Below are positions 518 to 22,680 of a DNA stretch of 51,792 nt, piece after piece (positions within the stretch are counted from its first letter, which is position 1; every line of letters starts with the position of its first letter). The notes under the pieces were generated by a model. The model did not search any database, was not told the origin of the DNA, and saw nothing but the letters and a program-made list of their open reading frames with translations. The translations under genes and the position numbers were made by a program. The DNA is from a virus. The stretch lies in the IMG/VR virus record IMGVR_UViG_3300043395_002133, positions 1-51,792 of that record. One strand, given 5' to 3'.

Positions 518-1299
518 TAAACAATACTCTTTGTCTTTTTACTTATTTCATTCATCAATTCCATTTCATAATTTTTGAATGTTTCAATATACCATTGTCT
601 TTTATGTCTTAAATGATTTGAGTGACCTGATATATCTGCAATAGTTGCATATGTTTTAGGTTCACCATTATAGTGAAACCAAGTACTTTCAAAGGTAACA
701 TCATTCATCAAATCATCAAAATATATTTCATCTTCCAACACAATTTTTGGTGTAAAGAAATCAACTGCTTTTACATAATCAATTTTTCCTGCCCAAAATC
801 CATTATGTGGATATGTATTTTTATGATGATAAGCACAACCAATGTATGTATTAGACCAACTATAATCTACTAAATCACCGGTGTATTTATTTGATGATGC
901 CATCATTAGTTCATCTACTTCGTTGTAAAAACATACAACAAATTCTTTACCAACACTATCATGTGATACAAATACTTTTAACCACTCTTGATTTTCAATT
1001 TTGTGTGGTACAAACACATGATTAAATTTTGGGTCTGATTCTGGTGTTTCTTTTGTCCACCAATCAAATTTAATATACCCATCAGTAGTAATATACAATC
1101 CCAAGTGTAGACCAGGTTTTCCAATTACACAACATGCATTATTTTCTTCTGCATCTTTTTTTATAGAATCAAAATCAGTTTTGAATCTTGTAAAAAGTGT
1201 AAAATTTCCTTGTGTCCAAGCTGCTGAATTTTTATCTTTTAATCCATGTTGGTTTTCGATGCAAATCTCCCACCAATCTTTATAACCTATTTCTATCAT
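517..1299 (-). CDS. Stand-alone LamG/concanavalin-like domain protein
   Basis: This 260-residue protein has the pattern of a laminin-G-like jelly-roll. Alternating beta-strand segments carry a WLKVFVSHD strand near residue 105, a substrate-face loop NTYIGCAYHHK near 150, and the typical closing strand FWAGKIDYVKAVD near 168-180. A C-terminal YATIADISGHSNHLRHK segment resembles the DxSGxxNH signature that follows LamG domains in secreted lectin-like proteins. The same fold appears inside the three glycosyltransferases upstream, so this looks like a free-standing version that may bind a glycan or the product of those enzymes. The start overlaps the radical SAM stop by 4 nt (ATGA). No signal peptide is visible. 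The fold call is fairly sure; the ligand is unknown. Confidence 0.7.
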   Translation of the reverse strand: MIEIGYKDWWEICIENQHGLKDKNSAAWTQGNFTLFTRFKTDFDSIKKDAEENNACCVIGKPGLHLGLYITTDGYIKFDWWTKETPESDPKFNHVFVPHKIENQEWLKVFVSHDSVGKEFVVCFYNEVDELMMASSNKYTGDLVDYSWSNTYIGCAYHHKNTYPHNGFWAGKIDYVKAVDFFTPKIVLEDEIYFDDLMNDVTFESTWFHYNGEPKTYATIADISGHSNHLRHKRQWYIETFKNYEMELMNEISKKTKSIV

Positions 1300-2711: not shown

Positions 2712-2737
2712 AACTTGTTTTTATATATCTATATATA

Positions 2738-5619: not shown

Positions 5620-5821
5620 CACGTGATGGTCTGTTAGTAGGACCTACTGTTTTAGCTTTAGCAAGTTGATAAAATTCATTTAAATACCATTCAATTCTTT
5701 CAGACCAAATATCGGTTTCCATTGAATAAACCCAATCATTTAAATCTTCTAAAGTGTTTGCAATAGATTCTAATGCTTTTACTTTTCTTTCCTCTAATGA
5801 GTTGTCTTTTTTTTCTGCCAT
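5579..5821 (-). CDS. Small acidic hypothetical protein
   Basis: This 80-residue protein begins MAEKKDNSLEERKVKALESI and is mostly predicted helix: a charged N-terminal amphipathic stretch, an aromatic middle (WVYSMETDIW, IEWYLNEFYQ) and a disordered Glu/Thr-rich tail. No catalytic motif is visible. It sits between two GT7-LamG genes, 10 nt after copy 3 and overlapping the start of copy 2, so it is probably translationally coupled to them and could be a partner or scaffold. That is inference from position. No homologue is recognised. Confidence 0.65.
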   Translation of the reverse strand: MAEKKDNSLEERKVKALESIANTLEDLNDWVYSMETDIWSERIEWYLNEFYQLAKAKTVGPTNRPSRDAERETTSEEETE

Positions 5822-5831
5822 TTTTATTTTA

Positions 5832-7319
5832 TTATGTTGTTATTCTATATTGAATATAACCCATTTTTTGTTTAGTATCCAATACATTATATTTTAAACT
5901 ATTTAATCCATATTTTTTAAAATCAACTAATCCTTCTAAAACTTCATTGAAAAATATATCTGCGTTTTCTTCAACATCGGGGTCATAGTTGTAATAACGA
6001 TTTATAATATTCGTGTCATCTTTGTGAACTAATGATTTATATGGAGCATCAATTCTAACTGGTAAATACATTTCATCTGATAAATTTATAGTTTCACTAA
6101 ATATTGAGTATTTTCCTTCTACTTTTATATGATTACCAGATTTACCTTTATCTAATTTCATTTCTTCAATACCACTTACATTGTACATCGTATCAAATCT
6201 AAAAATATTAGTTGGAACTAATCCATCAATACTAGCAAGTTTATCTAAGTAATCGATACCCTCATAATATAATTTTCTAAGTTGCTCATCATTTAATGCT
6301 TCATCAAATGTTATTATATCTGCCATTTGAATAGAAGTTTCTGATTCTGAAATTTTTATACATCTATCAGAATAATCAAACATTTTAAATTTATACAAAT
6401 CTTTTTCTTGTATTTTTTTATTGTTTAATATAACTTTAAGTTTATCTTTTCTTTTGTCATATATTAAAACAGCATTGTTCCATCTATTTTTGTAATATTC
6501 GACTGAAACATCCATATGATATTCTTTCTTATCCCAAATTTGACCATTTAAATAACGATTTCCCAATACATCTTCCGATAAAAATAAACCAGTATCTGGT
6601 CCATCAAACGCAAATAAACTAATTTTTTCTAAAGTTTCGGATGTGTCTTTAAACCACAATGAAATTGTAAATGATGAATCGGTAAATCCTTTCATCAATG
6701 AATTTTGTGGTCCATACATTTTTGTACCTTTTGGTAAATTAATACCTTTTATTGTATGAGTTTTATGTATATTTGAAATTTCAGCATCTTCTATTCTATA
6801 TGGTAAAATATCCCATTTATCGTAATATGAATAAATCTGATGTAAATCATAATATTTTTCTAAATACGCATCCGATTTTTCTAAACGTTTTAATAAATCC
6901 AAATCTTCGAACCCATATCCCCAATATTCATTAGAATATCCGTTTGCAAATTCAAAATCTTCTCTATTAATTAAAATAACTCCACCAAAATATTGTGGGT
7001 ATGGTAATTTATGATTGTGTGCTTCAACGTTTGTTGCTAAATGTATTGGAGTTTCAGGATAACTATAATCACATTCATCCGTTAATGGTAACATATCTAT
7101 ATCGTGAAAACAAAAATAAGTGTAATCTTTTGATATTTCGTTTACTACTGCATTACATAGTTTACCATAGTTAAATGGTCTATCGTCTGCCTGTTCTGCC
7201 ACAAATATAGTATAATCAATTCCCTTATCTAAAAGGAATCTATTCATGTGTGGTATGAAAACGTTTAAATGGTCTTCTCTATCACGATACGGAACTATTA
7301 TTGCTAATTTATCTTTCAT
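5832..7319 (-). CDS. GT7-type glycosyltransferase with inserted LamG domain (copy 3)
   Basis: This is the longest of the three related enzymes (495 residues). GT7 elements are IVPYRDREDHL, FNYGKLCNAV, FHDIDMLPL, YFGGVILI, NGYSNEYWGYG and FEDLD, where the third acidic position of EDDD is replaced by leucine. The LamG insert spans about residues 190-365 (SFTISLWFKD, IQMADIITFDEALNDEQL). The chain returns to the GT7 fold near 420-495 with YKSLVHKDDTN and KYGLNSLKYNVL, matching the histidine and DGLNSL segments of animal B4GALT. It overlaps the upstream GT2-like gene by 4 nt (ATGA). The altered acidic motif may mean a different sugar specificity or lower activity. Confidence 0.83.
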   Translation of the reverse strand: MKDKLAIIVPYRDREDHLNVFIPHMNRFLLDKGIDYTIFVAEQADDRPFNYGKLCNAVVNEISKDYTYFCFHDIDMLPLTDECDYSYPETPIHLATNVEAHNHKLPYPQYFGGVILINREDFEFANGYSNEYWGYGFEDLDLLKRLEKSDAYLEKYYDLHQIYSYYDKWDILPYRIEDAEISNIHKTHTIKGINLPKGTKMYGPQNSLMKGFTDSSFTISLWFKDTSETLEKISLFAFDGPDTGLFLSEDVLGNRYLNGQIWDKKEYHMDVSVEYYKNRWNNAVLIYDKRKDKLKVILNNKKIQEKDLYKFKMFDYSDRCIKISESETSIQMADIITFDEALNDEQLRKLYYEGIDYLDKLASIDGLVPTNIFRFDTMYNVSGIEEMKLDKGKSGNHIKVEGKYSIFSETINLSDEMYLPVRIDAPYKSLVHKDDTNIINRYYNYDPDVEENADIFFNEVLEGLVDFKKYGLNSLKYNVLDTKQKMGYIQYRITT

Positions 7320-8164
7320 ATATCAAGTATAATTCTTGTCAATTTATCCCACTTTGAATAATCAGAATGAGTATTAGTATCCATCTTTTCTAACATAAAC
7401 AATGGATTATTTATATCAATTTTCCAATCATTTATTTGGATACCTCTATACATTTTTTTATATTCTTTCCAAAATGTATAATCTTCCTTAGTTTCTGAAA
7501 CTTCTTTTAATCGTTTTAAAACTGTGGAATCCCATTTAAAATGATGAACTTGTATGAATCCTTCACCATTTCCATATGGATAACGTTTTGGATGATTCCA
7601 ACCCCTTTCTCTCCAAGTATCAACATTATCAATCTTTGCATAATGTTGACCGGGGGTAACGTCAACATATCCTTTCATCACACAAACCTTATTAGGACAA
7701 GCCCCACTCATTGGATATCTAAAAAACCCAGCGAGTGGAAACTTTTCCCAAATATTAGAGTCTTTCTCAACGATTGGAAATTCTCCATTTTCTCCTATCC
7801 TATCAATGAACCCACCTGTTATAAAATCCCAACCATTTAACTCACATTCTGCAATAAGTTCTTTGATTGGTTTTGGATAAATGTGAAATTCATCATCGTC
7901 TGAAACTACCCACCATTCGTTCGGTTTGGTACGTTTAATTTCGTTATATAGTTCAGTTACCTTTTCCCAATTAAACTTTGGTTCAGTAACTACTTTTATA
8001 GGTGTAATACCTAATTTTTTTACTTCATCTAAAATTCCATCGTTTGAATTTTGTCTATAAACAATTACATGAATTTCATCAACAATTGGTTTGTAATGTT
8101 CAATCATATGACCCAGCATCGTTGTGTTGTGTCCTACTACTGTAACTAAATTTATTTTTGACAT
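7316..8164 (-). CDS. Glycosyltransferase, GT2-like (GT-A fold)
   Basis: This 282-residue protein starts with a Rossmann-like NLVTVVGHNTTMLGHMIEHY segment followed by DEIHVIVYRQNSNDG, as in the Glyco_tranf_2_4/GT92-like group. The metal-binding acidic cluster VVSDDDEF lies near residues 96-103, followed by an HHFKWDSTVL segment typical of the C-terminal part of this group. It overlaps the upstream methyltransferase gene by 13 nt and the downstream GT7-LamG gene by 4 nt, so the three are almost certainly co-translated. It probably transfers a sugar in the same glycan pathway. Donor and acceptor are unknown. Confidence 0.8.
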   Translation of the reverse strand: MSKINLVTVVGHNTTMLGHMIEHYKPIVDEIHVIVYRQNSNDGILDEVKKLGITPIKVVTEPKFNWEKVTELYNEIKRTKPNEWWVVSDDDEFHIYPKPIKELIAECELNGWDFITGGFIDRIGENGEFPIVEKDSNIWEKFPLAGFFRYPMSGACPNKVCVMKGYVDVTPGQHYAKIDNVDTWRERGWNHPKRYPYGNGEGFIQVHHFKWDSTVLKRLKEVSETKEDYTFWKEYKKMYRGIQINDWKIDINNPLFMLEKMDTNTHSDYSKWDKLTRIILDI

Positions 8165-8922
8165 CTTTTAACCAATGTTAGACCAGTAGAAGCTGGTTTA
8201 TTTTTTTGTATTCCAAAATTGAAAAGGTCGAATACTTCCCATTCTGAATTTTCTTTTAATTCTTTGGCAAATTTAATTGGTCCATGCCAATCATCAAAAT
8301 CCCCCCTATCCTTTACCTCATTTGTAATAATATAATTATCTGCATAATTGGGGTCAGTATCATGGATTGAAACAATAGCGTTTGGTGAAAGTATTTGCGA
8401 ATATAATTCAAAATCTTCTTTTACATTTTCATAACTATGTCCTGCATCAATATGAAGATAATCAATTTTAATATCATTAAGAACAAAAAAATTGTGAAAT
8501 GCCTTTTCAGTTGTTTCACTTATAATGCGTGGGTGAAATGTTCTTCTAAGAAATGATTCTTCTCTAAACCAATCTACATTTCCACCAATACCATTCATTG
8601 CATCAACAACATAAGTAACACCAATATCACCCCAACTTAAATTATTATCACCTTCGAATATTTTTTGTTGATGTAAATCATAACGAGCTTGTGTCATTAA
8701 ACGAGGAATGAATCCTCCACCACTCCCTAAGCAAACACATACCTTTGCTCTCATATATTGAATAAGAGAATATACAATCAAACCATCACCTAAATGTAAA
8801 TCAGTTGAACCATGTGACCAACGATATGGGACTGGTTTATCTTCAATTTCTTGAGATTCGTTAAATTCCTGATTGTTTGTTAGATTGTTTTTTAGATATT
8901 CTAAATCTTGTAATGATTGCAT
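8152..8922 (-). CDS. Class I SAM-dependent methyltransferase (Methyltransf_24-like)
   Basis: This 256-residue protein has the glycine-rich SAM loop VCVCLGSGGGFIPRLM near residues 81-96. The strand-loop YLHIDAGHSYENVKEDFELY near 155-175 and IVSIHDTDP near 185 are characteristic of the Methyltransf_24/cephalosporin-hydroxylase-like group that often modifies sugars. It is the first gene after the 189-nt gap at 8923-9111 and leads the run 8922-1, overlapping the next glycosyltransferase by 13 nt. Sugar O-methylation within the glycan-modification cluster is the likeliest role by context; the substrate is not visible. No strong ribosome-binding site precedes the ATG. Confidence 0.8.
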   Translation of the reverse strand: MQSLQDLEYLKNNLTNNQEFNESQEIEDKPVPYRWSHGSTDLHLGDGLIVYSLIQYMRAKVCVCLGSGGGFIPRLMTQARYDLHQQKIFEGDNNLSWGDIGVTYVVDAMNGIGGNVDWFREESFLRRTFHPRIISETTEKAFHNFFVLNDIKIDYLHIDAGHSYENVKEDFELYSQILSPNAIVSIHDTDPNYADNYIITNEVKDRGDFDDWHGPIKFAKELKENSEWEVFDLFNFGIQKNKPASTGLTLVKRCQK

Positions 8923-9111
8923 AACCGATTGATATTTACCGAGATTTCGGGTTTAGGCCTTATATAGCTATAAATTATATAGTATTATAAAAAATAGTAT
9001 AAGTTATAGTGTAGTAGTTAGTAGCTTTGTAGCTAACCCCCTTCCCCCTTTGTATATAAATATATAAAAATATACAAAACGTAAAAAAAAGTAAAAAATA
9101 AATATTTGGAA
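8923..9111. other. AT-rich intergenic region, likely promoter/leader
   Basis: This 189-nt gap is the longest non-coding stretch in the glycan cluster and holds no open frame I can support. It contains an exact TATAAATATA (9055-9064; TATATTTATA on the sense minus strand), a short C-run block CCCCCTTCCCCC (a G-run on the sense strand), a small inverted repeat TAGCT/AGCTA beside it, and several imperfect TATA-rich repeats. The late-type element would give a leader of about 130 nt for the methyltransferase gene. A role as promoter with structured leader is inference. Confidence 0.5.
9055..9064 (-). promoter_or_regulatory. Late-type element TATATTTATA
   Basis: This is an exact copy of the 10-bp element found upstream of virion genes in this window. 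It lies between the GT-B gene and the methyltransferase gene, much further (about 130 nt) from its start codon than most other copies. Confidence 0.4.
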
Positions 9112-10149
9112 TTATGCTAAAATTGATGTACGGACTTTATCAATCCATTCGGTTTTATTATCAAATTTTTTCATATATTCTTTGAGATTTGACCAATTCT
9201 CATACCTTTCTTCATATGAATCTTTTAGTATTTGTTTCACACATTCATCAAATTCATTTTTAGTTGATACTCTATATTTGTATTGAACTTCTGGTGCCCA
9301 ATCTTTATTTATTATTGGTAATTTCCCATAATCAACTGCCTGAAAAATTGAGTATCCGAATGGTTCTTTAAAATATGCACCATGAAATATACCCCAATTT
9401 TTTAACATAAAAAAATGATGAATATTCGGGTCCCATTGAAATAAATCTATACCATTTAGAGAATATGTTGTAGTATCTCTTAAATTTTTTACATCAAATT
9501 GATTTGTAAGAACATACCCAGTATGATTATTCAACCAATGTAAACATTTACGAGATTCAGCTCGAGAAGCAAATCCAATTTTACCATTATTTACGTGAGA
9601 TGTAAGAGATAAGTTATGTTTAAACTCATAAAAATTTGGAATATTGTAAGTATAATTTGGAAATTCATCAATCATAGATGTTGTATTATTTCCAACCCAA
9701 ATTCTTCGATTAAAAGTAGCAAGATATTCATCATAAAAATCAACATCTACTTTGGTATTAAATTGTAATCGATTTATCTCTGGATTATTATCAATTACTT
9801 CTACCATTTCTCTTGCGTATGCGTGAACAAATACTGTTCCAAATTTATCTTCATAATGCCAGAGATGCGGTCTATTATGATAATGTGGGTGAAGCATATG
9901 AATTATTTCACTTTCTTCTAACCATTGTTTTGTTTTCTCTTCATCATCGTAATGAAAATGAAATGCTAACCCTTTTGGTAAAGACGTTTCTTCAAAATTA
10001 ACAGGTCTTTTAGAATCTATTAATAATCTCCATTCTTTTTTTATAGGAAGAGTTGGCCAAACTAATTCTAAGAAATAATTAGTCCATATATCAGAACCAC
10101 CTTGTATGGTGTTTCCGCAACCGGTTGTAACTAATAGTTTGTAACTCAT
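9112..10149 (-). CDS. Glycosyltransferase, GT-B fold (GT4-like)
   Basis: This 345-residue protein has an N-terminal Rossmann-type start (LLVTTGCGNTIQGGSDIW) with a glycine-rich loop. The nucleotide-sugar half carries KIGFASRAESRKCLHWL and the GT4-like block KEPFGYSIFQAVDYGKLPII near residues 262-281, corresponding to the E-x7-E region, although the second glutamate is replaced by glutamine. It lacks membrane segments and is probably cytoplasmic. It follows the SGNH-like gene after about 20 nt and is separated from the methyltransferase by the 189-nt gap. An exact TATATTTATA lies only 3 nt before the ATG. The fold call is fairly good; specificity is unknown. Confidence 0.75.
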   Translation of the reverse strand: MSYKLLVTTGCGNTIQGGSDIWTNYFLELVWPTLPIKKEWRLLIDSKRPVNFEETSLPKGLAFHFHYDDEEKTKQWLEESEIIHMLHPHYHNRPHLWHYEDKFGTVFVHAYAREMVEVIDNNPEINRLQFNTKVDVDFYDEYLATFNRRIWVGNNTTSMIDEFPNYTYNIPNFYEFKHNLSLTSHVNNGKIGFASRAESRKCLHWLNNHTGYVLTNQFDVKNLRDTTTYSLNGIDLFQWDPNIHHFFMLKNWGIFHGAYFKEPFGYSIFQAVDYGKLPIINKDWAPEVQYKYRVSTKNEFDECVKQILKDSYEERYENWSNLKEYMKKFDNKTEWIDKVRTSILA

Positions 10150-10152
10150 ATA

Positions 10153-10162
10153 TATAAATATA
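10153..10162 (-). promoter_or_regulatory. Late-type element TATATTTATA, adjacent to a start codon
   Basis: This is an exact copy of the element, but it ends 3 nt before the ATG of the GT-B gene. That leaves no room for a usual leader, so it may be a chance AT-rich match, give a leaderless message, or imply a later start codon. Confidence 0.25.
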
Positions 10163-10170
10163 TGTTTATA

Positions 10171-10974
10171 CTAAATTCTGGTTTTGATAAACATTTTTAA
10201 TTTTTCTGCCCATTCTTTTTGTGCAAATAATCCCGCATGGTTATCTCCTGCAAATCCATTTGTTTCATCTTGTATTAATTTTTTATTAGCATATGCCCAC
10301 AAATTTAAAGCATGATGACCATCTATTTGTATTATTCTTTTTTTTATAAATTCATTAGTAAAATAACTATCTGACAAATATTGCAGAAAAAATCCATCTG
10401 TAGCCTCAATAAAGTAATCAATTTTATTTAATTCAAAAAATGATATCAATCCAATCATTTCCATACCCAACTTATCATATTCACCCATTAAATCATAATG
10501 TTTTTCTAAATGATTTTTTAAATGCTCAGTTGTTTCAGAAAAGTAACCTCGTGGTTTGGTTGGATTTGGGTGTGAATCGCATGATTCTATCCATTCTATT
10601 TTATTATTTGAATCATACCTACAATTTACTACTAAATACCTTTCTAATTCTTTTGAATAAAAATCCAATCTTACTAATGGGTTATTAATTTGAAGAATAA
10701 ATAATGTTTTTTTACTTTCTTCTAATCCAACTTCTCTAATATATTGCCAAGTTTTTCTTAATAATCGTTTAGCCCCAGTACCCGATTTAGCAGTATTAAT
10801 CCATTTTAAATTCATAGAATCTGCTAAATATTTTACATATGAAACATCTAATTCATTTTCATATGAAATATTACAATTTTCTTTATACCATTGCTTAGAT
10901 TGTGGCCACCATAACCCACCACTTGCAGTATGAGAACACCCAGTAGCATACAATGTTTTTAATTCATTTTTCAT
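10171..10974 (-). CDS. SGNH-like hydrolase/acyltransferase-type protein
   Basis: This 267-residue protein shows all the spaced SGNH blocks. A block I-like ATGCSHTASGG lies near residues 10-20, with the nucleophile serine in GCSH. A block II-like AKSGTGAKR glycine lies near 62-70. A block III-like LQINNP asparagine lies near 93-98. A C-terminal DNHAGLFAQ supplies the Asp-x-His pair. These phage GCSHT proteins are seen in other large marine phages without a defined substrate. De-acetylation or acetylation of a glycan fits the neighbouring glycosyltransferases, but that is inference. Its start overlaps the stop of the upstream gene by one base (TAATG). Confidence 0.6.
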   Translation of the reverse strand: MKNELKTLYATGCSHTASGGLWWPQSKQWYKENCNISYENELDVSYVKYLADSMNLKWINTAKSGTGAKRLLRKTWQYIREVGLEESKKTLFILQINNPLVRLDFYSKELERYLVVNCRYDSNNKIEWIESCDSHPNPTKPRGYFSETTEHLKNHLEKHYDLMGEYDKLGMEMIGLISFFELNKIDYFIEATDGFFLQYLSDSYFTNEFIKKRIIQIDGHHALNLWAYANKKLIQDETNGFAGDNHAGLFAQKEWAEKLKMFIKTRI

Positions 10975-11909
10975 TATATCAAAACACTATTTTTAGCAGT
11001 TTCACATATTTCTTTCCAATAAAAATATGAACACTTATTTGGATTTATTTCTAATTGTTCATTATAAGGTAATGATGCAACATATTTTCCTTTAAAAAAT
11101 AAATCACCATTTCCGTTCAACACACCTGCATTGTGAAAAATATTAACTTCATCTAATTCATTAATTGGGTTTGGTGCCCAAGTAAAATTTAATCGAGTAT
11201 CTACTTTTGTTTCATTTCCATATAACCAAGCATTCCACAATAAACTCCACATTCCTGCAGTCCATTTTTGTATTGGATAATAATCTTTATCCCAATTTCT
11301 TTCTGATTCACAAAATAATTTATATAATTCAATACTATCTAATTCTACTTTATTCCAAAATTCGGAAGTTGTGTTTTTTACAATATATTGTGCACCACCT
11401 GAATTACTATTCATCAATTTTGGTATTAATGGATTTAACCCAATTATTTTACACATACCTTCATATACATCATTTCCTTTACTAATAATATAATCATAAT
11501 TTATATATGAATTCGTATTACTCATATACCATATATTATCATCGCCCATTTTTTTTAAATTATTCATAAGAATTCGTCTTGTGAAAATAGTATCACAATC
11601 ATATAAAAACCATGGCTCAGTTTTAATTTCTGGTCTTGCTTCTATATGTTGTTTTAACATATTGAAATAAATTGAAGGAGCGTATCGTTTATCTTCTCGT
11701 GTATCATCGTAAAAGAAAAATCTAACATAATTGTATTTGTTTTGTAATTTTTTCCAATCAGTTAAATCATAAGAATCTTGTACAGCACACACAATATCCA
11801 TTTGGTTTCCATTAACACCATTTTTAATAAAATTATTTATCATAACCTCTACTTGCCAAGTGTAGTATGGTATTGCAGGTTGACAACATATAAATCTTAA
11901 TTCTTTCAT
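10974..11909 (-). CDS. GT-A-like glycosyltransferase, hydroxyproline/serine glycosyltransferase-like
   Basis: This 311-residue protein has a probable donor-binding DxD in WFLYDCDTIF near residues 103-112, preceded by a YFNMLKQHIE helix. It also has a central NSNSGGAQYIVK strand and QKWTAGMWSLLWNAWLYG. The layout recalls plant-type peptidyl-serine galactosyltransferases and hydroxyproline arabinosyltransferases, with weak similarity judged by eye. It directly follows the fibre and adhesin genes (16 nt gap), so it may act on those proteins. No secretion signal is present. The GT-A call is moderate and the acceptor is speculative. Confidence 0.65.
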   Translation of the reverse strand: MKELRFICCQPAIPYYTWQVEVMINNFIKNGVNGNQMDIVCAVQDSYDLTDWKKLQNKYNYVRFFFYDDTREDKRYAPSIYFNMLKQHIEARPEIKTEPWFLYDCDTIFTRRILMNNLKKMGDDNIWYMSNTNSYINYDYIISKGNDVYEGMCKIIGLNPLIPKLMNSNSGGAQYIVKNTTSEFWNKVELDSIELYKLFCESERNWDKDYYPIQKWTAGMWSLLWNAWLYGNETKVDTRLNFTWAPNPINELDEVNIFHNAGVLNGNGDLFFKGKYVASLPYNEQLEINPNKCSYFYWKEICETAKNSVLI

Positions 11910-11925
11910 AACTTTTTAATTTTTA

Positions 11926-13143
11926 TTATACTGCACAATATCCACTTCTAGTAAATAATCCACTATTATTTATAGTACCATACGCATTTCCATCGGAATA
12001 AACAAATCCTCCTCCGGTGAATGTACTACCAACGGAATCATAATAAGTATATCCATCTATTAATCCATTGGCGGTTGAATGATATAATGTATATTGAAAT
12101 GTTCCGGCTCCATAATGTTCACAAGCGGTTGTTCCTTTTCCTAAACTACCATCCCCACTCGTACCTTGAGATACAATAAAATTTGTAGCAGTATTACTTC
12201 CTCCACTTGTAGTAGTTGTAGTAGTTGTAGTTGTAGTAGTTGCTACATAACAACTCAACGCCGTACCCATTCGTTTATCAGTTGCGTTACCAAAATTATC
12301 TCTAATTCTAGTTCTATATAAATATCCATCAGATAATCCACTTAGAATATATGATGTTGCACTTCCTATGTCTATAAGATTTGTTTCTAAATCCAAATCG
12401 CCTACTGATAATCCCCAAATCAAATATTTTAAAGTACCACCACCGGCAATGTTTGTTATTTCCAAATAACCATTTGTTCCACTTGTATCATTACATCCTT
12501 GTGAATTTAATGTATATGTAATTGGTGCTAAAGTAGTAGTTGTAGTGGTTGTAGTTGTAGTGGTGGTTGTAGTAGTTGTACAATTTACAGTAACTGCTGT
12601 ATTTTGAACGGCAACTAAACCATTTGAATCCATAACCGCAACATACCAAGTACCATTAGGAACACCACTCCAATCATGTAATGCAATACCACTTGGTGTA
12701 GTTCTAACACCAGATGCAGAACCACCTGTTCCTGCTACTTTTTGAGCAACATTTGCTTGCGAAGTATCATATGCAACATAAGAATAAGTGCCACTACCCC
12801 CGCTAAATGAACTTCGCCATCCACCGGTTGTTCCACTACATGATACACCACCATTTGTTACTGTTAATGGTGGTTGTGTGGTTGTAGTTGTAGTTGATGT
12901 AGTTGTAGTTGTAGTTGTTGATGTTGTAGTAGTTGTTGTAGTGGTTGTTGTTGTTGCACCACTTTTACCATGAAAATCATCAAAAGAAATAGTAGAACCT
13001 GCAGTTGTTTTTCCTGCAAGAGTTCTAACGGCAGTATCATCCATACTAATTTGTGCAGTTGCATTTAATCCTAATACAGCCGCAACATCAGTTGTAGGGT
13101 CACTACCTCCAAGATTTATTACACCACTAGCATTTAATGCCAT
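11926..13143 (-). CDS. Tail adhesin with poly-threonine linkers
   Basis: This 405-residue virion protein starts with a domain of about 60 residues (MALNASGVINLGG ... TISFDDFHGKSG) that I recognise from many marine phage tail proteins. Three threonine-rich linkers (residues about 64-89, 189-204 and 302-312) then separate compact beta-rich modules, one with GGSGTYSYVAYD resembling the SprB-type repeats of gliding Bacteroidota adhesins. Cysteines are few and roughly one per module edge. Such low-complexity Thr tracts act as rigid stalks and are good O-glycosylation substrates. The gene is coupled to the long fibre by a one-base overlap and is followed by glycosyltransferases. It is probably a receptor-binding or fibre-tip protein. 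Confidence 0.75.
   Translation of the reverse strand: MALNASGVINLGGSDPTTDVAAVLGLNATAQISMDDTAVRTLAGKTTAGSTISFDDFHGKSGATTTTTTTTTTTSTTTTTTTSTTTTTTQPPLTVTNGGVSCSGTTGGWRSSFSGGSGTYSYVAYDTSQANVAQKVAGTGGSASGVRTTPSGIALHDWSGVPNGTWYVAVMDSNGLVAVQNTAVTVNCTTTTTTTTTTTTTTTTLAPITYTLNSQGCNDTSGTNGYLEITNIAGGGTLKYLIWGLSVGDLDLETNLIDIGSATSYILSGLSDGYLYRTRIRDNFGNATDKRMGTALSCYVATTTTTTTTTTTSGGSNTATNFIVSQGTSGDGSLGKGTTACEHYGAGTFQYTLYHSTANGLIDGYTYYDSVGSTFTGGGFVYSDGNAYGTINNSGLFTRSGYCAV
12208..12240 (-). repeat. Thr-tract coding repeat (third linker)
   Basis: A run of eleven threonine codons, mostly ACT/ACA, gives a near-perfect triplet repeat on the DNA (GTAGTT units on the plus strand). Confidence 0.8.
12532..12579 (-). 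repeat. Thr-tract coding repeat (second linker)
   Basis: Sixteen consecutive threonine codons in mixed ACA/ACT/ACC usage form a GTAGTT/GTGGTT-like triplet array on the plus strand. This could expand or contract in frame. Confidence 0.8.
12877..12954 (-). repeat. Thr-tract coding repeat (first and longest linker)
   Basis: About 26 codons that are threonine except for two serines. The triplet-repeat DNA could change length by slippage without shifting the frame. Confidence 0.8.
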
Positions 13144-16100
13144 TATTTATCCTTTTTTAATTCTTCTATTTCTTTTTTCAATTCTTTAATACATTCTACT
13201 AATAATGGTACAACTTTTTCATATTGAACAGTCATATAATTTTCACCACTTTTTGATTTACCATCATTATCATCAAATGGAGCAAGATGTATAATTTCAG
13301 GTAATACTTCCTTAACTTCTTGTGCAATTAAACCAATTTGTTTTCCATCGGTATCATATCCAAATGATTTTGCCAATTCATTTTCTTCATAATAAACTCC
13401 ATTTAATTTTTGGATTTTATCTAATGGATTATCTATATTTCCTAAAATGTTCTTTAATCTTTTATCAGAGTAATATGCGGTAATGTTACCACTTGCAACT
13501 ATGTTACCACCAACATCAATCATATTAGAAACTGCATCTCTTTGCATTTTAACATAACGAGTTGATAAACTACCCAATTGGATACCACCATCTATAATTT
13601 CCGTAAATGAACCTTGTTCTGCTACTGACCAAGATGCAGCAGGATATGTTATTCCGGTTGCAGTTACTGATGTAGTTCCACCATATGTCCAACTTATTCT
13701 TTCATATAAATCCCAAGTATGTCCGGTACCAGTAATAACTGCCTGTCCACTTATTCCGTTACCACTCATATTAATACTACTCACATTAAATCCAGAATTA
13801 CTATCCTGATGCACAGTCACTGTTTCACCAGTTGTTGTATTATATAAATACCAAGCATACGATACACTTAAATATTGACAAGTAGATGATACACTTAATA
13901 AACCAGTTCCATTGGCAGTTGTTTCCGTAACAGTAGCAGTATAGTTTCTCCCTGAAGTACTAACTAATGCATTGGATGCTACTAAACGAGTTTGAACTCC
14001 TGGAGAACCACCGCTTGTACCAGCAGCAGAAGTATGTGTACCACTATTACTATATGTTCCACCTAATGCACTAAATGTAGATTTACCATTCAAAAATATT
14101 GTTTTAGTTCCACCACTATTTGCAATACTAATAGATTTATTAGCAGAATCTAAAATAACTGCATCATTTACCGATGCAAGTTGTGTTGCACCAATACTCC
14201 AACCTCCAATAGTACCTGCGTTTGAAGTAATATTACCATTAAACGTACCGTCAGTTGCAGTAACAGTTCCATTAAACGTACCACTACTTGCATATACAGC
14301 TCCGGTGAATGTTCCACTTGTAGCAGTAATTGCACCACTAATAGTAACACCCGATGCAGTTAAAACACCTGCTTTGGTTACTCTAAACGGAGCAGAAGCT
14401 GCAGTTGTATTCCCGGCCCATAATCTATATGTTGCATCAGTTGCAGATAATCTAACAACATCGTTTGATGTTCCTAATGTAATATCACCACCACTATCTA
14501 ATGTAACGTTGCCACCGGTTAAAGTAGATGAACTTAATGACCACCCACCAATTGCACCACTTGTAGCAGTTAATAATCCTGCAGGAGAAACTCTAAAGGG
14601 TGCTGATGCAAATGTTGCATTACCTAAATAAATTCCGTTTGAATCTGCTTTAAAAATACTATTACCACTACCAATTGAAATTGTACCACCACTTAATGCT
14701 CCAGTAAACGTTCCACTTGCTGCTGATAATGCTCCACTAAATGTACCTCCGCCTGTTATTGTAAGACTTGTTCCATCCCATAATAAAGAGTTTGATGCAC
14801 TTTTTAAAGAAAGTTTTCCACTAGTCCCATCACTACCAATCCATGCTCCAACTTGGTCATAACCCTTTGTTGCTTGACCAATTGAAATATATGGAGAAGT
14901 AGTTCCACCTGCAATAGTAATATTTGCATTACCAGATGTATTTGTACCAACGTTTATAGTTTGTTTTACATATGATTCTCTAAATATAGCAATTTCAGCT
15001 GCTACAAAATATGAATCGGTCCCTAACGATTCCCAAAACGCAGTTTCGGTATCTGGTTGTTTATTTAAGTTAGTAGTTGCATTTACTTTTGTTGCGTAAT
15101 ATGTTCCACTATATAAAACTGCATCTCTACGTGTTGGATAATCTCCAGTATCATAATATGTAACAGTTGAATCCCAAGGCCCTCTAAATACTACACCCGG
15201 TCCATCTGCTCCATTAGCACCATCCGTTCCATTTGTACCATTCGTACCATTAGTCCCGTTTGTTCCATTACTACCATCCAATGTTACGCTTACTCTATGA
15301 GTTTTTGAAATTGTACCAGTTGTACCTTCCGAATTCACATAAGTTATTGTTAGGGAAACTGTTGTCCCAGCATCAGTAGTTGGAGTTGTTGGGGTAATTG
15401 TACCACTTGAATTTGAACCACCAGTTATTGTTGAAACGTAGTATGTGTTTATTGTACCACCACTTGAGTATGAATAATTTGAACCACCTTCATTTACTGC
15501 AATTGTAAAAGTAGAAGGTGTTCCGTATGTACCTGTATTTGATTTTGTAACTGATTGTGCATCGTTTGATAAAATAGCTACTACTATCGGAGCAGGTGTT
15601 TTTGCTTTTGAATATGTTACTACCTTTGTCACATCAGTTGTATCACCTGCACCATCTTTATATCTTACTAATAAAGATAATGAACCACTATCTTTTGTTA
15701 AAGCAGTAATACCATAAGTTGCATCATCGGGTGTTGTATCATTTGCTACAACATTTGTTTCAGTTGCAGAAATTATATCCCATCTATTATTTGTATTTAA
15801 TCCTTCATCTCTTGTTATATCTTCACCACCAACTTTAACACTTACCGAACCACTTGTTAAAACAAACGAACCACTTTCCACAAACCCAGTTGATTTAGCA
15901 GGAAGAGTTGCATTTTCATTGGTAAGAGTTACTGATAATCCATCCAATATTTTTACAGGAGTAATTTTTAATGTATCATGATAATCAATACCATATGCAT
16001 CAGATGCACTAAAGAAATAAGTTGCAGAACCAGATGTATAATCAAAAGTTGAACCTGATAAATAATAAGTTGCTACTGCAGTTGTTGGGTCATCTGATAA

Positions 16101-18314
16101 TAAAGTTAAAGGTGCTGCTATTCCATATTGACTACCTGAGTTTATCGTAATCGTTGTACCAGTAATACCTAAATTTTTTCTTCTTACATCAAATGTTATT
16201 ACTTGATTTGATGGATTTAAAGCAAGAGTTGTTGCTTTATATATAAATTGATTTGCAGTTGATGAAGCAAATAGACCAGGTGCGTTATCTCCATCTTCCA
16301 ATCTATAAATTGTTTCGTATTCTTCGATTCCATCTGCAGATGCTGTATAGGTAATAAATCCAACTCTAACCGAACTTGTCAATGCAGTATCCAATGAACC
16401 ACTAAATTCACCAATTTGAACTACAAATCCAGCAGAAGATGATGTGTGTAATTTACCAGGATATTCTAATAAAGTACCATTTGATTGAGTATAATGAGTT
16501 GGGTCAATATAACTACCCGTTATATCGAATGCAGACCTACCATACGAAACTGTCCCAGCGATATTTTGACGAGTAGTTGTAAATCCAATTTGTTGAAATG
16601 GTGGATTTGCTATTGAACCAGTTGTAAAACGGAATGCAGATTTATCTGCTTGTAATAGTAGAATTTTTGTAGATGTTGGGAAATTATTACCACCTGTAAA
16701 TTGTTTTGATGCAAATACATCAACCGGTATATAATTGTTATTTATATCATAAAATTCAAAACGAAAATCAAAAGTTTCAGTTGCTACATTTTTAGAAACA
16801 TCTTGTACAATTGTAAATTCATCAGGTGAAAATGATGTTTCTTGTGCATTTTTTAGACTTACATTTGATACATGCCAACCACTACCATTAAATTCAAAAA
16901 CTAATTTAGCATCAGCAGAACTACCGGTTGGTATTGCAATAATATTTTTAGTTATATCTTGTTTTGTTTGATATATTGCAGAACCAGAAAGAGTTAAAAA
17001 ATCTTGTGTATAAGTTGATGAACTCAAATATGCACGAAGTGTTTTTGAATTATCTACCGAACCGCTATAAAGAGTTTTAAATGTAAGTGTATATTCTACA
17101 TCTTTTGAAACCGAAATAGATTGACTTGTATATAAAGTTTGTACACCAATTTGATTATTTTGTGGTTTTACTGATGCATATAATTTATCCAAATTTAATA
17201 TATCAGTTGTTCCCCATATTGTTGGTGCAAAATTTGAAGAACCTGTCCAATATGTACTTAAATTTGTAGAAGTAAAATTACCATACGATATATCAGTTTG
17301 GCCTGATGCATTTAAATCTCTTAGTAATTCAGTAGATTCTAATTTAGATTCTTGTACTAAAACATAATCACCAACATCGTTACGAGATTTACGGAAAACC
17401 TTTACTCTTGCTACATCACCCACAAATGTTTTAAGATTTGATATGTTGATTTTAGCAAAAGAACCGGTCAATGCAGATTCGGTAAATGTTTGGTTATCTA
17501 AATATTCAAATGATGATGTATATGAACTTTGAGTAAAATTTGATACAACATTATTAATTGAATATGGAATATCGACTAAAATTTCATCGGTATTTAATAC
17601 CTCTTTAACAGTTGCTGTATATCCTAAATCTGGTAATTGTATTTGGTTTTCATCAATTGATGCAGTCCAACCACCACCACTAACTCTTTTTAATTTATAT
17701 AGTGTTCCTGCAGTCCATCTACTTAAATTTGTTCCTGCAATTGGAATTTCTGCAATACCCTCCACCGAACCACTTTGAGTTACATACGGAGTTGTAACAT
17801 TGTATATTGGTTTTACAATTTCATCAATTGAAATCGTAGGTCTTTTATAGAATCTTACACGAGTTTCGTTTGTAAGGTTTTTATTGATTTGGAATGTTCT
17901 TTCCCACTTTACATTATATGCACCTGTCCATTCTACTGGAATATCACGAATAACCCCATTAGCATCCTCATAAGTCTTCAATTCTCCCAAAATGGTAATC
18001 TTACCTATCCCAATCGGTGTGTCCTCATAAACGTGAACAGAAACCAATTTAGAGATACCCTCATAATATTCCGGCACACCATTACCAGGTTCGTAATAAA
18101 TAGGATTACCATCAACATCTAAAATCTCAATTTTTATTTCAGTTGTTTCTTTAAGATATTCAGAACCCTCAATTAAGAATCCATTTTTACCACCAGTAAA
18201 TGTTTCGTTAAATTCCGTTATACGAAAATAATCGGAATTAGGATTTTGGTCATTGATAAACGTTCCGTAATTCGATAAATTTTGTAGTGGTGAGTATGAT
18301 TTGATTATTGCCAT
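13143..18314 (-). CDS. Long tail fibre with C-terminal S74 intramolecular chaperone
   Basis: This 1723-residue fibre begins MAIIKSYSPLQNLSNYGTF, a start common to virion-attached proteins. Beta-rich Ig-like segments follow. A collagen-like NGTNGTNGTNGTDGANGADG stretch lies near residues 1010-1036, followed by a carbohydrate-binding-type module (YYDTGDYPTRRDAVLYSGTYYATK). Short repeats based on GxFxGxxxASSGTFNG precede the C-terminal Peptidase_S74 chaperone: YYSDKRLKNI near 1613 holds the auto-cleavage Ser and Lys, then GLIAQEVKEVLPE and a final KELKKEIEELKKDK coiled coil. In this family the chaperone trimerises the fibre and then cuts itself off. An AGGAG ribosome-binding site precedes the ATG, with a TATATTTATA element 19 nt upstream. 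It probably determines host recognition. Confidence 0.93.
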   Translation of the reverse strand: MAIIKSYSPLQNLSNYGTFINDQNPNSDYFRITEFNETFTGGKNGFLIEGSEYLKETTEIKIEILDVDGNPIYYEPGNGVPEYYEGISKLVSVHVYEDTPIGIGKITILGELKTYEDANGVIRDIPVEWTGAYNVKWERTFQINKNLTNETRVRFYKRPTISIDEIVKPIYNVTTPYVTQSGSVEGIAEIPIAGTNLSRWTAGTLYKLKRVSGGGWTASIDENQIQLPDLGYTATVKEVLNTDEILVDIPYSINNVVSNFTQSSYTSSFEYLDNQTFTESALTGSFAKINISNLKTFVGDVARVKVFRKSRNDVGDYVLVQESKLESTELLRDLNASGQTDISYGNFTSTNLSTYWTGSSNFAPTIWGTTDILNLDKLYASVKPQNNQIGVQTLYTSQSISVSKDVEYTLTFKTLYSGSVDNSKTLRAYLSSSTYTQDFLTLSGSAIYQTKQDITKNIIAIPTGSSADAKLVFEFNGSGWHVSNVSLKNAQETSFSPDEFTIVQDVSKNVATETFDFRFEFYDINNNYIPVDVFASKQFTGGNNFPTSTKILLLQADKSAFRFTTGSIANPPFQQIGFTTTRQNIAGTVSYGRSAFDITGSYIDPTHYTQSNGTLLEYPGKLHTSSSAGFVVQIGEFSGSLDTALTSSVRVGFITYTASADGIEEYETIYRLEDGDNAPGLFASSTANQFIYKATTLALNPSNQVITFDVRRKNLGITGTTITINSGSQYGIAAPLTLLSDDPTTAVATYYLSGSTFDYTSGSATYFFSASDAYGIDYHDTLKITPVKILDGLSVTLTNENATLPAKSTGFVESGSFVLTSGSVSVKVGGEDITRDEGLNTNNRWDIISATETNVVANDTTPDDATYGITALTKDSGSLSLLVRYKDGAGDTTDVTKVVTYSKAKTPAPIVVAILSNDAQSVTKSNTGTYGTPSTFTIAVNEGGSNYSYSSGGTINTYYVSTITGGSNSSGTITPTTPTTDAGTTVSLTITYVNSEGTTGTISKTHRVSVTLDGSNGTNGTNGTNGTNGTDGANGADGPGVVFRGPWDSTVTYYDTGDYPTRRDAVLYSGTYYATKVNATTNLNKQPDTETAFWESLGTDSYFVAAEIAIFRESYVKQTINVGTNTSGNANITIAGGTTSPYISIGQATKGYDQVGAWIGSDGTSGKLSLKSASNSLLWDGTSLTITGGGTFSGALSAASGTFTGALSGGTISIGSGNSIFKADSNGIYLGNATFASAPFRVSPAGLLTATSGAIGGWSLSSSTLTGGNVTLDSGGDITLGTSNDVVRLSATDATYRLWAGNTTAASAPFRVTKAGVLTASGVTISGAITATSGTFTGAVYASSGTFNGTVTATDGTFNGNITSNAGTIGGWSIGATQLASVNDAVILDSANKSISIANSGGTKTIFLNGKSTFSALGGTYSNSGTHTSAAGTSGGSPGVQTRLVASNALVSTSGRNYTATVTETTANGTGLLSVSSTCQYLSVSYAWYLYNTTTGETVTVHQDSNSGFNVSSINMSGNGISGQAVITGTGHTWDLYERISWTYGGTTSVTATGITYPAASWSVAEQGSFTEIIDGGIQLGSLSTRYVKMQRDAVSNMIDVGGNIVASGNITAYYSDKRLKNILGNIDNPLDKIQKLNGVYYEENELAKSFGYDTDGKQIGLIAQEVKEVLPEIIHLAPFDDNDGKSKSGENYMTVQYEKVVPLLVECIKELKKEIEELKKDK

Positions 18315-18333: not shown

Positions 18334-18343
18334 TATAAATATA
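18334..18343 (-). promoter_or_regulatory. Late-type element TATATTTATA before the fibre gene
   Basis: An exact copy ends 19 nt before the fibre ATG, with AGGAG in between. On the other strand it reads TATAAATA, the T4 late consensus, pointing at the plus-strand ribbon-helix-helix gene, so this element could work in both directions. Confidence 0.6.
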
Positions 18344-18368
18344 ACTGTTTTTAATACTTATTGTAAAA

Positions 18369-18387
18369 TCCATAGAATTCCATAGAA
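18369..18387 (+). repeat. Tandem 9-bp repeat before RHH gene, candidate operator
   Basis: TCCATAGAA occurs at 18369-18377 and again at 18379-18387, a 10-bp spacing (one helical turn), ending directly before the ATG of the ribbon-helix-helix gene. Tandem half-sites are typical for RHH dimers, so autoregulation is a reasonable inference. Confidence 0.45.
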
Positions 18388-18552
18388 ATGAATAAGTACA
18401 CTACAATTCAAATAAAAAAAGAAACCCACGAACTATTACAAGAATATTGTAAAGAACGTGGGTACACCTTAAGCGGATTAGTTGAGCAGTTGATTAAACA
18501 AAAAATCAATCAAACACCCAAACCTACTAATATATTACGCGTTAATACTTAA
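18388..18552 (+). CDS. Ribbon-helix-helix (Arc/CopG-like) DNA-binding protein
   Basis: This is the only plus-strand gene in the window: 54 residues from the ATG at 18388 to TAA at 18550-18552. YTTIQIKKETHELLQEYCKE gives the N-terminal DNA-contacting beta strand (TIQIKK) and helix A. The RGYTLSGLVEQLIKQKI stretch that follows has the turn and helix B pattern of CopG/MetJ/Arc repressors. The last 15 residues are a short tail. It converges on the SbcDC fusion gene, overlapping its 3' end by 11 nt, and diverges from the tail-fibre gene. No Shine-Dalgarno site is visible; a tandem 9-bp repeat abuts the start. It probably represses its own promoter and possibly the fibre promoter. Confidence 0.75.
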   Translation: MNKYTTIQIKKETHELLQEYCKERGYTLSGLVEQLIKQKINQTPKPTNILRVNT

Positions 18553-21500
18553 CGTGACTAAAACCTTCTACTTTTTTAATTTCGATTAGACCATCAACTA
18601 CATCTCTCATAGAATCGATGTGAGATATAATCATCACAAAATCAAATTGTGTCTTCAAATAGGTAAATAACATAAATAGTGATTGTAAATTCTCACTATC
18701 CAATGTACCGAACCCTTCATCGATTACTAAGAAGTTTGGACGAGGTAAGTTACATACATTGATTAAAGCAACTCTAATTGCAAGTCCTGATATAAATCTC
18801 TCCATACCACTACACATCTCCAAAGACCACTTATTATCACCATAAACAAGGTAAGCATTGATGTTTTTACCATCCATCTCTAATTGCATTCCAAACTCAA
18901 CAATTTGTGCAAGGATGTTATTTACCTCACCTTCAATCATTGGTAATGCTTTTTCAATCAATTCGTATGATACACCATCCTTACTCAAGGAGTTTAAATA
19001 ATACTCATATAATTTGGATTGTTCTTCTAATTCTTTAACCTCACTAATCTTTGCCTCAAGAATTTCTTTTTGTGATTTAAGAGATGAAACCTTACCATTT
19101 AATTCTAAAAGTTTTTTATTTGTCTTTGTAAAGTTTTTCTTAACCTCATCTAATGTTTCTCTTTTAGCCTTAATTTCTTCTCTAATTTCACCATTCTTTT
19201 TAATTTGTTCTTCGTTTTGGTGATACTCTTCTATTAGTTTAATTTGGTCTGCAATTTGAGTTTGAATACGAATTTCTTCGGTTTCAGATGCAGATAACTT
19301 ATTCATTAGAGTTGAAATTTCCCTATCAACTTTACCTTCTTTTTCTTTAGTTTCAACTAAATTATTCCAATCAGTTTCATATGGAGTTAATTCATTCATT
19401 TTGATTTCAGTAATATCACGAGTATGTATTACCTGATTATATTCTTCCCAAATTTCCGCTAAGGATTCTTCAACATCTTTTTTGGATTCTAAAATAGTTT
19501 TAGAATTCTCCATGCAAATTTCACAATTTTCATTATATTTGTGAGAATCTAAGTGAGTTTTCTTATCCGTTAATGAATCAATTTTTATATCTAATTTTTC
19601 TAATTCATGTACTGCAGTACTAAAATCTTTTCTAGCAACCTTTAATACTCCAATCTTATCTTCTAATTCTTCTTCATCAAATCCATCAATAATTTCTTCT
19701 AATTGTAGTTGTAATTCCTCTAATTTAGAAATACGGGTTTGTGTTTCACCTTTGGTTTTTAAAATTTCTTCTTCTTTAGCAACAAGAATTTTTTTACGTT
19801 TTTCCAATTCATCAATTCCAACTAAATCCGAATTAAGTTTTACAATTTTACCATTCAAACGAATTAAATCTTTGTTTAACCCATCTTCTTCATCTTTAAT
19901 TCCGCCCAATTCAATCTCAACTAATTTGTATTCAGATTTGTTTTCTTTCAAATTAGTTTCAATTTCAGCAAGTTTAGAAGTGAAATCATCTGATTTAAAT
20001 TTCTTAATTAAAGTTGCGTTTTCTCTATTCTCATCTGATGCTAATTGATATAATTTATCGAAAATATCCACACCAATGAATTGTGATAAAATCTCCTTAC
20101 GTTCTGCTTGTGATTTATCAATGAAGAGTGCGTTGTTACCTTGTAACGATAATGATGTTAAAACAAAATCTTCAAACTTACCTAAGTATTTCTCAATATT
20201 TTTGTTAGTATCTCTACGTTGTTCTCCATTTAAGGATGTAGTTATACCACCATCTTCTTTCCAAAAGTTTACGTTTACCGAAAGGTTAGTTCCCTTTCTA
20301 GTCCACTTTGCACTTCGTTCGATGAAATAATCAACCCCATCAATCTCAAAATTAAACTTACAATAGAAGTTATCTTTTTGATTATTTAGGATGTTTTTTG
20401 ATGAAGATGTACGAGATGTTTTATCAAAGATACAAAATGAAAGGGCATCAAACAAAGATGATTTACCACTTGCATTGGGTGCAAAAATACCAATCACACC
20501 TCTTGCATCTTCGAATCTAACTTTGTTACCTTCGCCATACGAAAACATATTACTGAACTCCAAAGTCTTAGGTGTCCATAAAATATTCTCAGCTAATGTA
20601 GAATCATCAATTCTCGAGTTTACCTCTTTATTTATTTCAGAAATCTTGTCTAAATCAGAATCTTCCAATAGGAATTGTCTTTCTAAGTAATCTCTGATAA
20701 GTTGGTTTTGGAACGTTTCATCCTTCACATTACCAACAATATTTTTGTTTAGAGCAGAGTTACGTTTTAATTGACCAATAGTATCAGTTCGTGTAACTGT
20801 CACCTCAGCAACGTTAAATAATTGTTTTAATTCAGTAATACGAAGTTTCATATCAGATGCTTCAGTATTAGTAAATCTCAATCTTAAACGAGGATTTTTA
20901 GGTAATTTCGTTCCAACCTCATCATATACCCATTGTGGTATAACACCATCAATTACATCGATTGTAAGGAATCCATAATCATTATGGATATGATGTTCGG
21001 TAAAAGTACGAGTAGGTACATCCCATATTAGATAACCATGATTTTCCAACATTTCACCATGATTTTGTTGAATCATAGAACCTGCATATGCAACGTGTTC
21101 ATAACCTGCACCGAATGTTTGACGTTTATGAATATCACCCATCATAACCATATCGAATCCATCGAACATATCGACAGTGAATGAATTTGATGATACTACA
21201 TATCCAATATCAGTTTGTGCTTTGTTTACCGGTCCGTGGAAAAGACAGATTTTGTTTTCGCCTTCAATTTCTTCTGCCTTTGGCCAATTTTCCTTTTTAT
21301 CCAATATGGAATAAACGACAAAAGTAAGATTGTGGTGCTGATAAACACCAGTATCGCGAAGATAATGAATGCGAGGATTTTGAAGATTATCAATAATGGG
21401 CGTAAGAACATCTAATCTATGTGTGTTGTTTAGGTTACAATCGTGGTTTCCCGTAATTAAAAATGTTTCGCGTAACTTAGAACATTCAGTTAAAAACCAA

Positions 21501-21697
21501 CTTATCTCCTGTATTAATTCAGGTGACATTTCAGTTTTAGCATGAGCAATATCTCCTGCTAAATAAATAATAGAATCTTCAATTTTATCATCTTCTACTT
21601 GTTTCAAAAACTTTTTGAACACCTCACGATATTCTTTATGTCTTTGTAAGTTTCTGATGTGTAAATCAGCTAAGTGGTATATTTTGTTTACTATCAT
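18542..21697 (-). CDS. Fused SbcD-SbcC (gp47-gp46) recombination nuclease
   Basis: In T4 these are two proteins; here they are one chain of 1051 residues. The N-terminal Mre11-type phosphoesterase shows LADLH (D11, H13), LAGDIAH near 46-52, ITGNHDC near 101-107 and later GDIHKRQ. The Rad50/SbcC part begins near residue 375, with Walker A FAPNASGKSS near 403-412, coiled-coil arms, and a zinc-hook CEIC near 724. It ends with the signature CSGMERFISGLAIR near 960, Walker B FLVIDEGFGTLD near 990, and an ISHID H-loop. It should process DNA ends for recombination-dependent replication. Its start overlaps the primase stop by 4 nt, so the two are co-translated. I see no frameshift or internal stop. 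Confidence 0.95.
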   Translation of the reverse strand: MIVNKIYHLADLHIRNLQRHKEYREVFKKFLKQVEDDKIEDSIIYLAGDIAHAKTEMSPELIQEISWFLTECSKLRETFLITGNHDCNLNNTHRLDVLTPIIDNLQNPRIHYLRDTGVYQHHNLTFVVYSILDKKENWPKAEEIEGENKICLFHGPVNKAQTDIGYVVSSNSFTVDMFDGFDMVMMGDIHKRQTFGAGYEHVAYAGSMIQQNHGEMLENHGYLIWDVPTRTFTEHHIHNDYGFLTIDVIDGVIPQWVYDEVGTKLPKNPRLRLRFTNTEASDMKLRITELKQLFNVAEVTVTRTDTIGQLKRNSALNKNIVGNVKDETFQNQLIRDYLERQFLLEDSDLDKISEINKEVNSRIDDSTLAENILWTPKTLEFSNMFSYGEGNKVRFEDARGVIGIFAPNASGKSSLFDALSFCIFDKTSRTSSSKNILNNQKDNFYCKFNFEIDGVDYFIERSAKWTRKGTNLSVNVNFWKEDGGITTSLNGEQRRDTNKNIEKYLGKFEDFVLTSLSLQGNNALFIDKSQAERKEILSQFIGVDIFDKLYQLASDENRENATLIKKFKSDDFTSKLAEIETNLKENKSEYKLVEIELGGIKDEEDGLNKDLIRLNGKIVKLNSDLVGIDELEKRKKILVAKEEEILKTKGETQTRISKLEELQLQLEEIIDGFDEEELEDKIGVLKVARKDFSTAVHELEKLDIKIDSLTDKKTHLDSHKYNENCEICMENSKTILESKKDVEESLAEIWEEYNQVIHTRDITEIKMNELTPYETDWNNLVETKEKEGKVDREISTLMNKLSASETEEIRIQTQIADQIKLIEEYHQNEEQIKKNGEIREEIKAKRETLDEVKKNFTKTNKKLLELNGKVSSLKSQKEILEAKISEVKELEEQSKLYEYYLNSLSKDGVSYELIEKALPMIEGEVNNILAQIVEFGMQLEMDGKNINAYLVYGDNKWSLEMCSGMERFISGLAIRVALINVCNLPRPNFLVIDEGFGTLDSENLQSLFMLFTYLKTQFDFVMIISHIDSMRDVVDGLIEIKKVEGFSHVKY

Positions 21698-22648: not shown

Positions 22649-22680
22649 CAAATATACAAAATAAATCTGATATTTCCAAA
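22649..22680 (-). promoter_or_regulatory. Bacteroidota-type promoter P2 for primase operon
   Basis: The sense strand carries TTTG (22677-22680), exactly 20 nt, then TATATTTG (22649-22656). This fits the Bacteroidota sigma consensus TTTG-N19-21-TAnnTTTG at every fixed position. The start codon lies 20 nt downstream. Confidence 0.75.

Follow-up and report, generated by a model that had tools for sequence, protein, structure and literature searches.

Regulators of the ribbon-helix-helix (RHH; Arc/CopG/MetJ) class act as dimers whose two-stranded sheet is inserted into the major groove, and they bind cooperatively to repeated operator units. Self-repression is known for Arc of phage P22 and for CopG of plasmid pMV158. 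The small phage protein considered here has the RHH fold in common with both by profile and structure search, with no significant pairwise match; the settings differ, P22 being temperate and CopG plasmid-borne, whereas the present gene lies in a large phage behind a putative late-type promoter. The nearest described case is SvtR of SIRV1, a small viral RHH protein whose targets of repression are its own promoter and the gene of a tail-fibre structural protein, gp30 (PMC5569661). Unlike the present locus, SvtR belongs to an archaeal virus, binds an inverted-repeat site and has its highest affinity at the gp30 promoter, while the candidate sites of the phage protein are 10-bp direct repeats and its effect on the fibre gene is hypothetical. 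F55 of Sulfolobus virus SSV1, again an archaeal virus, is likewise a viral RHH regulator acting on tandem repeats, with the consensus ATAGATAGAGT (PMC5569661). The late promoters of T4 (TATAAATA, gp55) provide a further comparison, as they too have a short late element, composed of A and T only, near the start. A literature search for RHH regulators in jumbo phages found nothing on point.

The stretch of viral DNA analysed here (the window; 51,792 nucleotides, the record IMGVR_UViG_3300043395_002133) contains, at 18388-18552 on the plus strand, an ORF whose 54-residue translation is MNKYTTIQIKKETHELLQEYCKERGYTLSGLVEQLIKQKINQTPKPTNILRVNT. Judged by sequence profiles and a predicted model, the product is an RHH protein, a known kind of DNA-binding protein. 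It matches PF10723 (RepB-RCR_reg) with 25.5 bits, above the cut-off of 21, and phrog_3180 ("Arc-like repressor") with an E-value of 1.1e-5. The arrangement typical of the class, an N-terminal strand followed by two helices, is found here: strand residues KYTTIQIKK occupy positions 3-11, and both helices (11-24 and 28-42) are predicted with high confidence. The strand is absent from the monomer model; such a strand forms only in the dimer. The top Foldseek matches in the PDB are mostly RHH proteins (CopG, ParG, MazE, omega, MatP, Arc and their kin), none of them significant alone for a protein of this size. A profile search of PDB sequences gave no RHH match, the best hit being unrelated (E 0.07). 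The earlier note on this DNA had proposed an RHH regulator, and the profile, helix and fold matches agree with that proposal.

Analysis of substitutions identifies 18388-18552 as a genuine gene under strong purifying selection. The ratio pN/pS in the RHH frame is about 0.24 in clade A and about 0.09 in clade B (mean nonsynonymous versus synonymous difference 0.126/0.522 and 0.041/0.464, respectively), and the remaining five frames contain stops, on average between one and nearly four in each sequence. The earlier note had named a frame not conserved in relatives as a refuting outcome; the comparison was run, and the frame is conserved.

The neighbourhood is conserved as well. The divergent neighbour, at 13143-18314 on the minus strand, encodes a 1723-aa tail fibre (phrog_5668 tail fiber, E 5.5e-25; Peptidase_S74). 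The convergent neighbour, at 18542-21697 on the same strand, encodes a fused SbcD-SbcC nuclease of 1051 aa, separate halves of which match phrog_77 (E 1.3e-56) and phrog_100 (E 3e-30); its final 11 bases are shared with the 3' end of the RHH gene. The earlier note had described the RHH gene as the sole plus-strand gene, situated between fibre and nuclease and opposed to both. This description holds for the set of non-overlapping ORFs, each 50 aa or longer, that was selected from the window, and the placement recurs among relatives in viral contigs, which were taken as the best 80 of 131 in one search and the best 80 of 197 in another; since the members of these sets are interrelated, counts over them do not represent independent events. 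In all 80 of the best 80 of 131, the start of the fibre gene and the 3' end of the fused nuclease gene flank the RHH gene, which is opposed to both, the statement covering the flanks present, as some loci end short of the fibre gene. A search anchored on the nuclease recovered the RHH gene, always opposed and with one partial match, in 55 of the 66 loci with an intact nuclease 3' end; 2 of the other 11 retain only a short stretch of DNA. In G001, a 287-kb relative, one strand carries 340 of the 366 ORFs, and the RHH gene interrupts a long block of it as a lone exception.

Several features of the surroundings deserve mention in their own right. The junction between the convergent RHH and nuclease genes is a favoured site for cargo genes (L004, L031, L036, L039, L052, L054, L057, L062, L067, L072, L073, L077 and L079), which lie on the same strand as the nuclease gene and by eye resemble methyltransferases, oxygenases and sulfotransferases. 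Downstream of the fibre genes, positions 1-12000 of the window hold several glycosyltransferase-like or sugar-related genes, also named by eye. The fused 1051-aa SbcD-SbcC is shared with Microcystis phage Mel-JY01 at 38% identity; the RHH gene was not found adjoining the SbcD-SbcC gene of that phage.

Late expression of the RHH gene, suggested by the earlier note, is probable, but not through the element that the note had named; the role of a switch regulator, which the note raised as an alternative, is hypothetical. The note took TATAAATA at 18334-18341 for a T4-type late element of the RHH gene; on the minus strand these bases read ATATTTATA, and in G001 this element stands upstream of genes 24 times in sense and once in antisense orientation. 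Because the sense late element is thus ATATTTATA, the feature at 18334-18342 (minus strand), which lies 19 nt before the fibre ATG, is the fibre promoter seen backwards. The order known from T4 is reversed in this phage group, whose sense strand reads the reverse complement of the T4-type TATAAATA. The RHH gene has a late-class element of its own, ATACTTATT, at 18354-18362 on the plus strand, 25 nt before its ATG, with the class and gap seen at other late genes. Over 98 distinct upstream regions of relatives, this element takes the form ATATTTAT in 58 and ATACTTAT in 17; the other 23 have neither strict form, and the ATACTTATT of the window is itself a variant.

The class is called late from the kinds of genes that follow it: in G001, ATATTTATA or close variants precede the tail-tube, baseplate-hub, head-tail-adaptor and fibre genes. 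Promoters of the TTTG/TAnnTTTG class precede the exonuclease, RNA ligase, endonuclease and primase genes, an example in the window being the Bacteroidota-type promoter (TTTG, 20 bp, TATATTTG) at 22649-22680 on the minus strand, before the primase gene and upstream of the nuclease gene. The main sigma factor of Bacteroidota has TTTG/TANNTTTG as its consensus (PMC6847099). A literature search on the late motif TATTTATA found nothing on point. A second small RHH-looking ORF of 64 aa with its own ATATTTATA element occurs in the 287-kb relative (L084, 18353-18547); it has no PHROG match.

The candidate operator consists of two copies of TCCATAGAA, at 18369-18377 and 18379-18387 on the plus strand. 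They are set at a 10-bp step, the second directly abutting the RHH ATG, and the array starts 6 bp beyond the promoter element. Chance could account for this repeat in the window alone, which contains one such exact 9-mer pair, against a mean of 0.8 in simulated windows of the same dinucleotide content. The case therefore rests on the relatives, in which placement and conservation make the repeat significant. Upstream of the RHH gene the 10-bp lag is dominant (clade A, z = 12.7; clade B, z = 11.1), and clade B shows a 20-bp harmonic as well. Even where the proteins are 43-60% identical to the queries, the gene is preceded by arrays whose 10-bp units share an AGAA core, with copies at distances from the ATG that reach tens of bases. 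The operator-like tandem repeat reported in the earlier note at the RHH start is thus present in the window and has its counterparts in the relatives.

Comparison of loci ties the array to the promoter of the RHH unit. In four loci (L185, L193, L201 and L218), the promoter and the RHH gene are parted by a cargo gene, which is SGNH-hydrolase-like by reading or encodes a 131-aa protein; there the array is found at the promoter of the resulting two-gene unit, not at the RHH start. Seven loci without the RHH gene (L212, L219, L224, L227, L236, L237 and L242) keep the fibre late element and have no array. The candidate operator overlaps the RHH gene's own promoter, both by its position in the window and by the promoter-bound arrays of relatives. 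At L239, a 356-aa gene splits the fibre and RHH promoters; a CTAAAGAA array is found at the RHH gene, and a degenerate CTTTAGAA pair is left beside the fibre gene. At the scale of genomes, the exact tandem ATAGAA-N4-ATAGAA occurs at a single locus in G001 (287 kb, at the RHH promoter) and in G002, and the exact ATAGAA tandem occurs at a single locus, as a three-unit array, in G009 and G010. The B-type array is found at the RHH promoter in 5 of 6 genomes. A regulon search of G001 that allowed up to one mismatch found no tandem site before its other genes. In G004, a second tandem site (78932-78946) was set aside as a likely chance match, since by its coordinates it falls inside the 3' end of the primase gene.

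Two types of array exist: ATAGAA accompanies proteins with the strand motif YTT.Q, and CTAAAGAA accompanies proteins with YAM.Q or YSM.Q. Over 101 distinct upstream regions, arrays are present in 25 of 30 of the TT type and in 59 of 71 of the AM/SM type. In the TT type each of the 61 phased AGAA units follows a T, while in the AM/SM type 106 of 137 units follow TAA. The pairing holds among proteins 43-60% identical to the queries. Clade by clade, then, the version of the array appears to match the DNA-reading strand of the protein. In the tree one single change separates the two protein types, and the observation is thus one of consistent pairing, not a count of independent switches.

We consider it likely that the protein is a late-expressed autorepressor whose promoter overlaps the divergent promoter of the fibre gene. 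Late in infection, the polymerase would read the element at 18354-18362 to produce the RHH mRNA. RHH dimers would then settle side by side on the 10-bp AGAA units, roughly from the start site to the start codon, and bound dimers would block further initiation, so that the protein would be held at a low, set level. Known viral RHH repressors operate in this manner (PMC5569661). If transcription begins a few bases past the element, the array should cover the start site and the first transcribed bases, which is a classic location for a repressor. The fibre and RHH late elements point away from each other at a distance of about 20 bp (19-30 bp among the relatives in which it was measured), and at such closeness two polymerase footprints should overlap. 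Once the RHH promoter is shut, the site would probably be left to the fibre promoter; an indirect effect on the fibre gene is possible. From the sequence comparisons we infer binding of the protein to the array, repression as its result and a possible influence on the fibre gene. A stricter version seems to us rather unlikely: the RHH gene and the two overlapping late promoters would act as a self-limiting timer that sets the moment of the late changeover to tail-fibre transcription in a Bacteroidota host, the RHH protein appearing before the fibre and, by closing the promoter of its gene, releasing that of the fibre gene.

Against an autorepressor it should be noted that one site is visible in the genome and that no second target was found in G001; a repressor with a single site seems pointless unless another target exists. 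The single evolutionary change behind the pairing of strand and array type, and the variant promoter element of the window, with 23 of 98 upstream regions lacking both strict forms, likewise count against it. In a rival reading the main target is the divergent fibre gene, which the protein would repress or activate from the intergenic array while also limiting itself, in the manner of SvtR. We regard this as possible but not probable. The RHH gene is always divergent from the fibre gene, the array lies within about 30-40 bp upstream of the fibre element, SvtR is a precedent (PMC5569661), and L239 keeps its degenerate pair beside the fibre gene despite the gene between the promoters. However, the array follows the RHH element rather than the fibre element, in loci with an inserted gene it is found at the RHH operon's promoter, and phages without the RHH gene retain the fibre gene together with its late element. 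To a similarly modest degree, it is conceivable that the true targets are host genes or weaker sites scattered over the phage genome, with the array only setting the level of the protein. With a single tandem site in each phage genome, such a target could have escaped notice, and a homologue nested in the phage clade occurs in contigs of Bacteroidota genomes; yet no target sites were found, and G001 has no one-mismatch tandem upstream of its other genes.

That the AGAA units are an A-rich translation-start signal is very improbable, although they touch the ATG in the window and although Bacteroidota, which lack Shine-Dalgarno sequences, have a Kozak-like preference for A at -3 (PMC6847099). 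A translation signal would not account for the strict 10-bp phase with its 20-bp harmonic, for copies that lie as much as tens of bases away from the start codon, for the clade-specific sequence of the arrays, or for arrays that remain at the promoter when another gene is inserted, and no such exact arrays precede other G001 genes. Many antitoxins are RHH proteins that repress themselves, the fold and the autoregulation being typical of MazE and ParD. The resemblance extends to the present protein, which has MazE among its Foldseek matches. A role as the antitoxin of a toxin-antitoxin pair is nevertheless very improbable as well: there is no downstream partner, as the convergent nuclease gene overlaps or touches the RHH end in the window and in most relatives, the cargo genes of the junction are on the opposite strand and of unrelated kinds, and no adjoining toxin gene was found in the loci examined. 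The autorepressor remains our preferred reading.

The hosts are most likely Bacteroidota, given that the TTTG/TAnnTTTG class corresponds to the consensus of the main sigma factor of that phylum. Among cultured phages, Microcystis phage Mel-JY01 and Flavobacterium phage immuto are the nearest by the baseplate protein. The phage protein of clade B also has RHH homologues, at 76-81% identity, in contigs of Chitinophaga and Pedobacter MAGs (L179, 464-616; L180, 3211-3384; L181, 1068-1217), where the adjoining enzyme genes look cellular and no array is visible upstream of the homologues. These copies nest inside the phage clade in the tree, which suggests transfer of the gene from phage to host.

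At least 197 viral-contig stretches encode a relative of the RHH protein, and among 50,697 records of annotated phages the family had no match; a search of annotated phages with the DNA neighbourhood of the gene likewise found none. Thus, while the kind of protein is already known, the family and the candidate sites that appear to co-evolve with it matched no annotated phage record searched. The locus represents a protein family with a co-conserved candidate operator, widespread in viral contigs and yet missing from annotated phage records, and a natural data set for how two residues of the RHH strand may read one base of the operator. To our knowledge, little transcription data exist for large Bacteroidota phages. 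For these phages the elements described here may serve as a working promoter map, with early promoters of the host type and late promoters marked by ATATTTATA.
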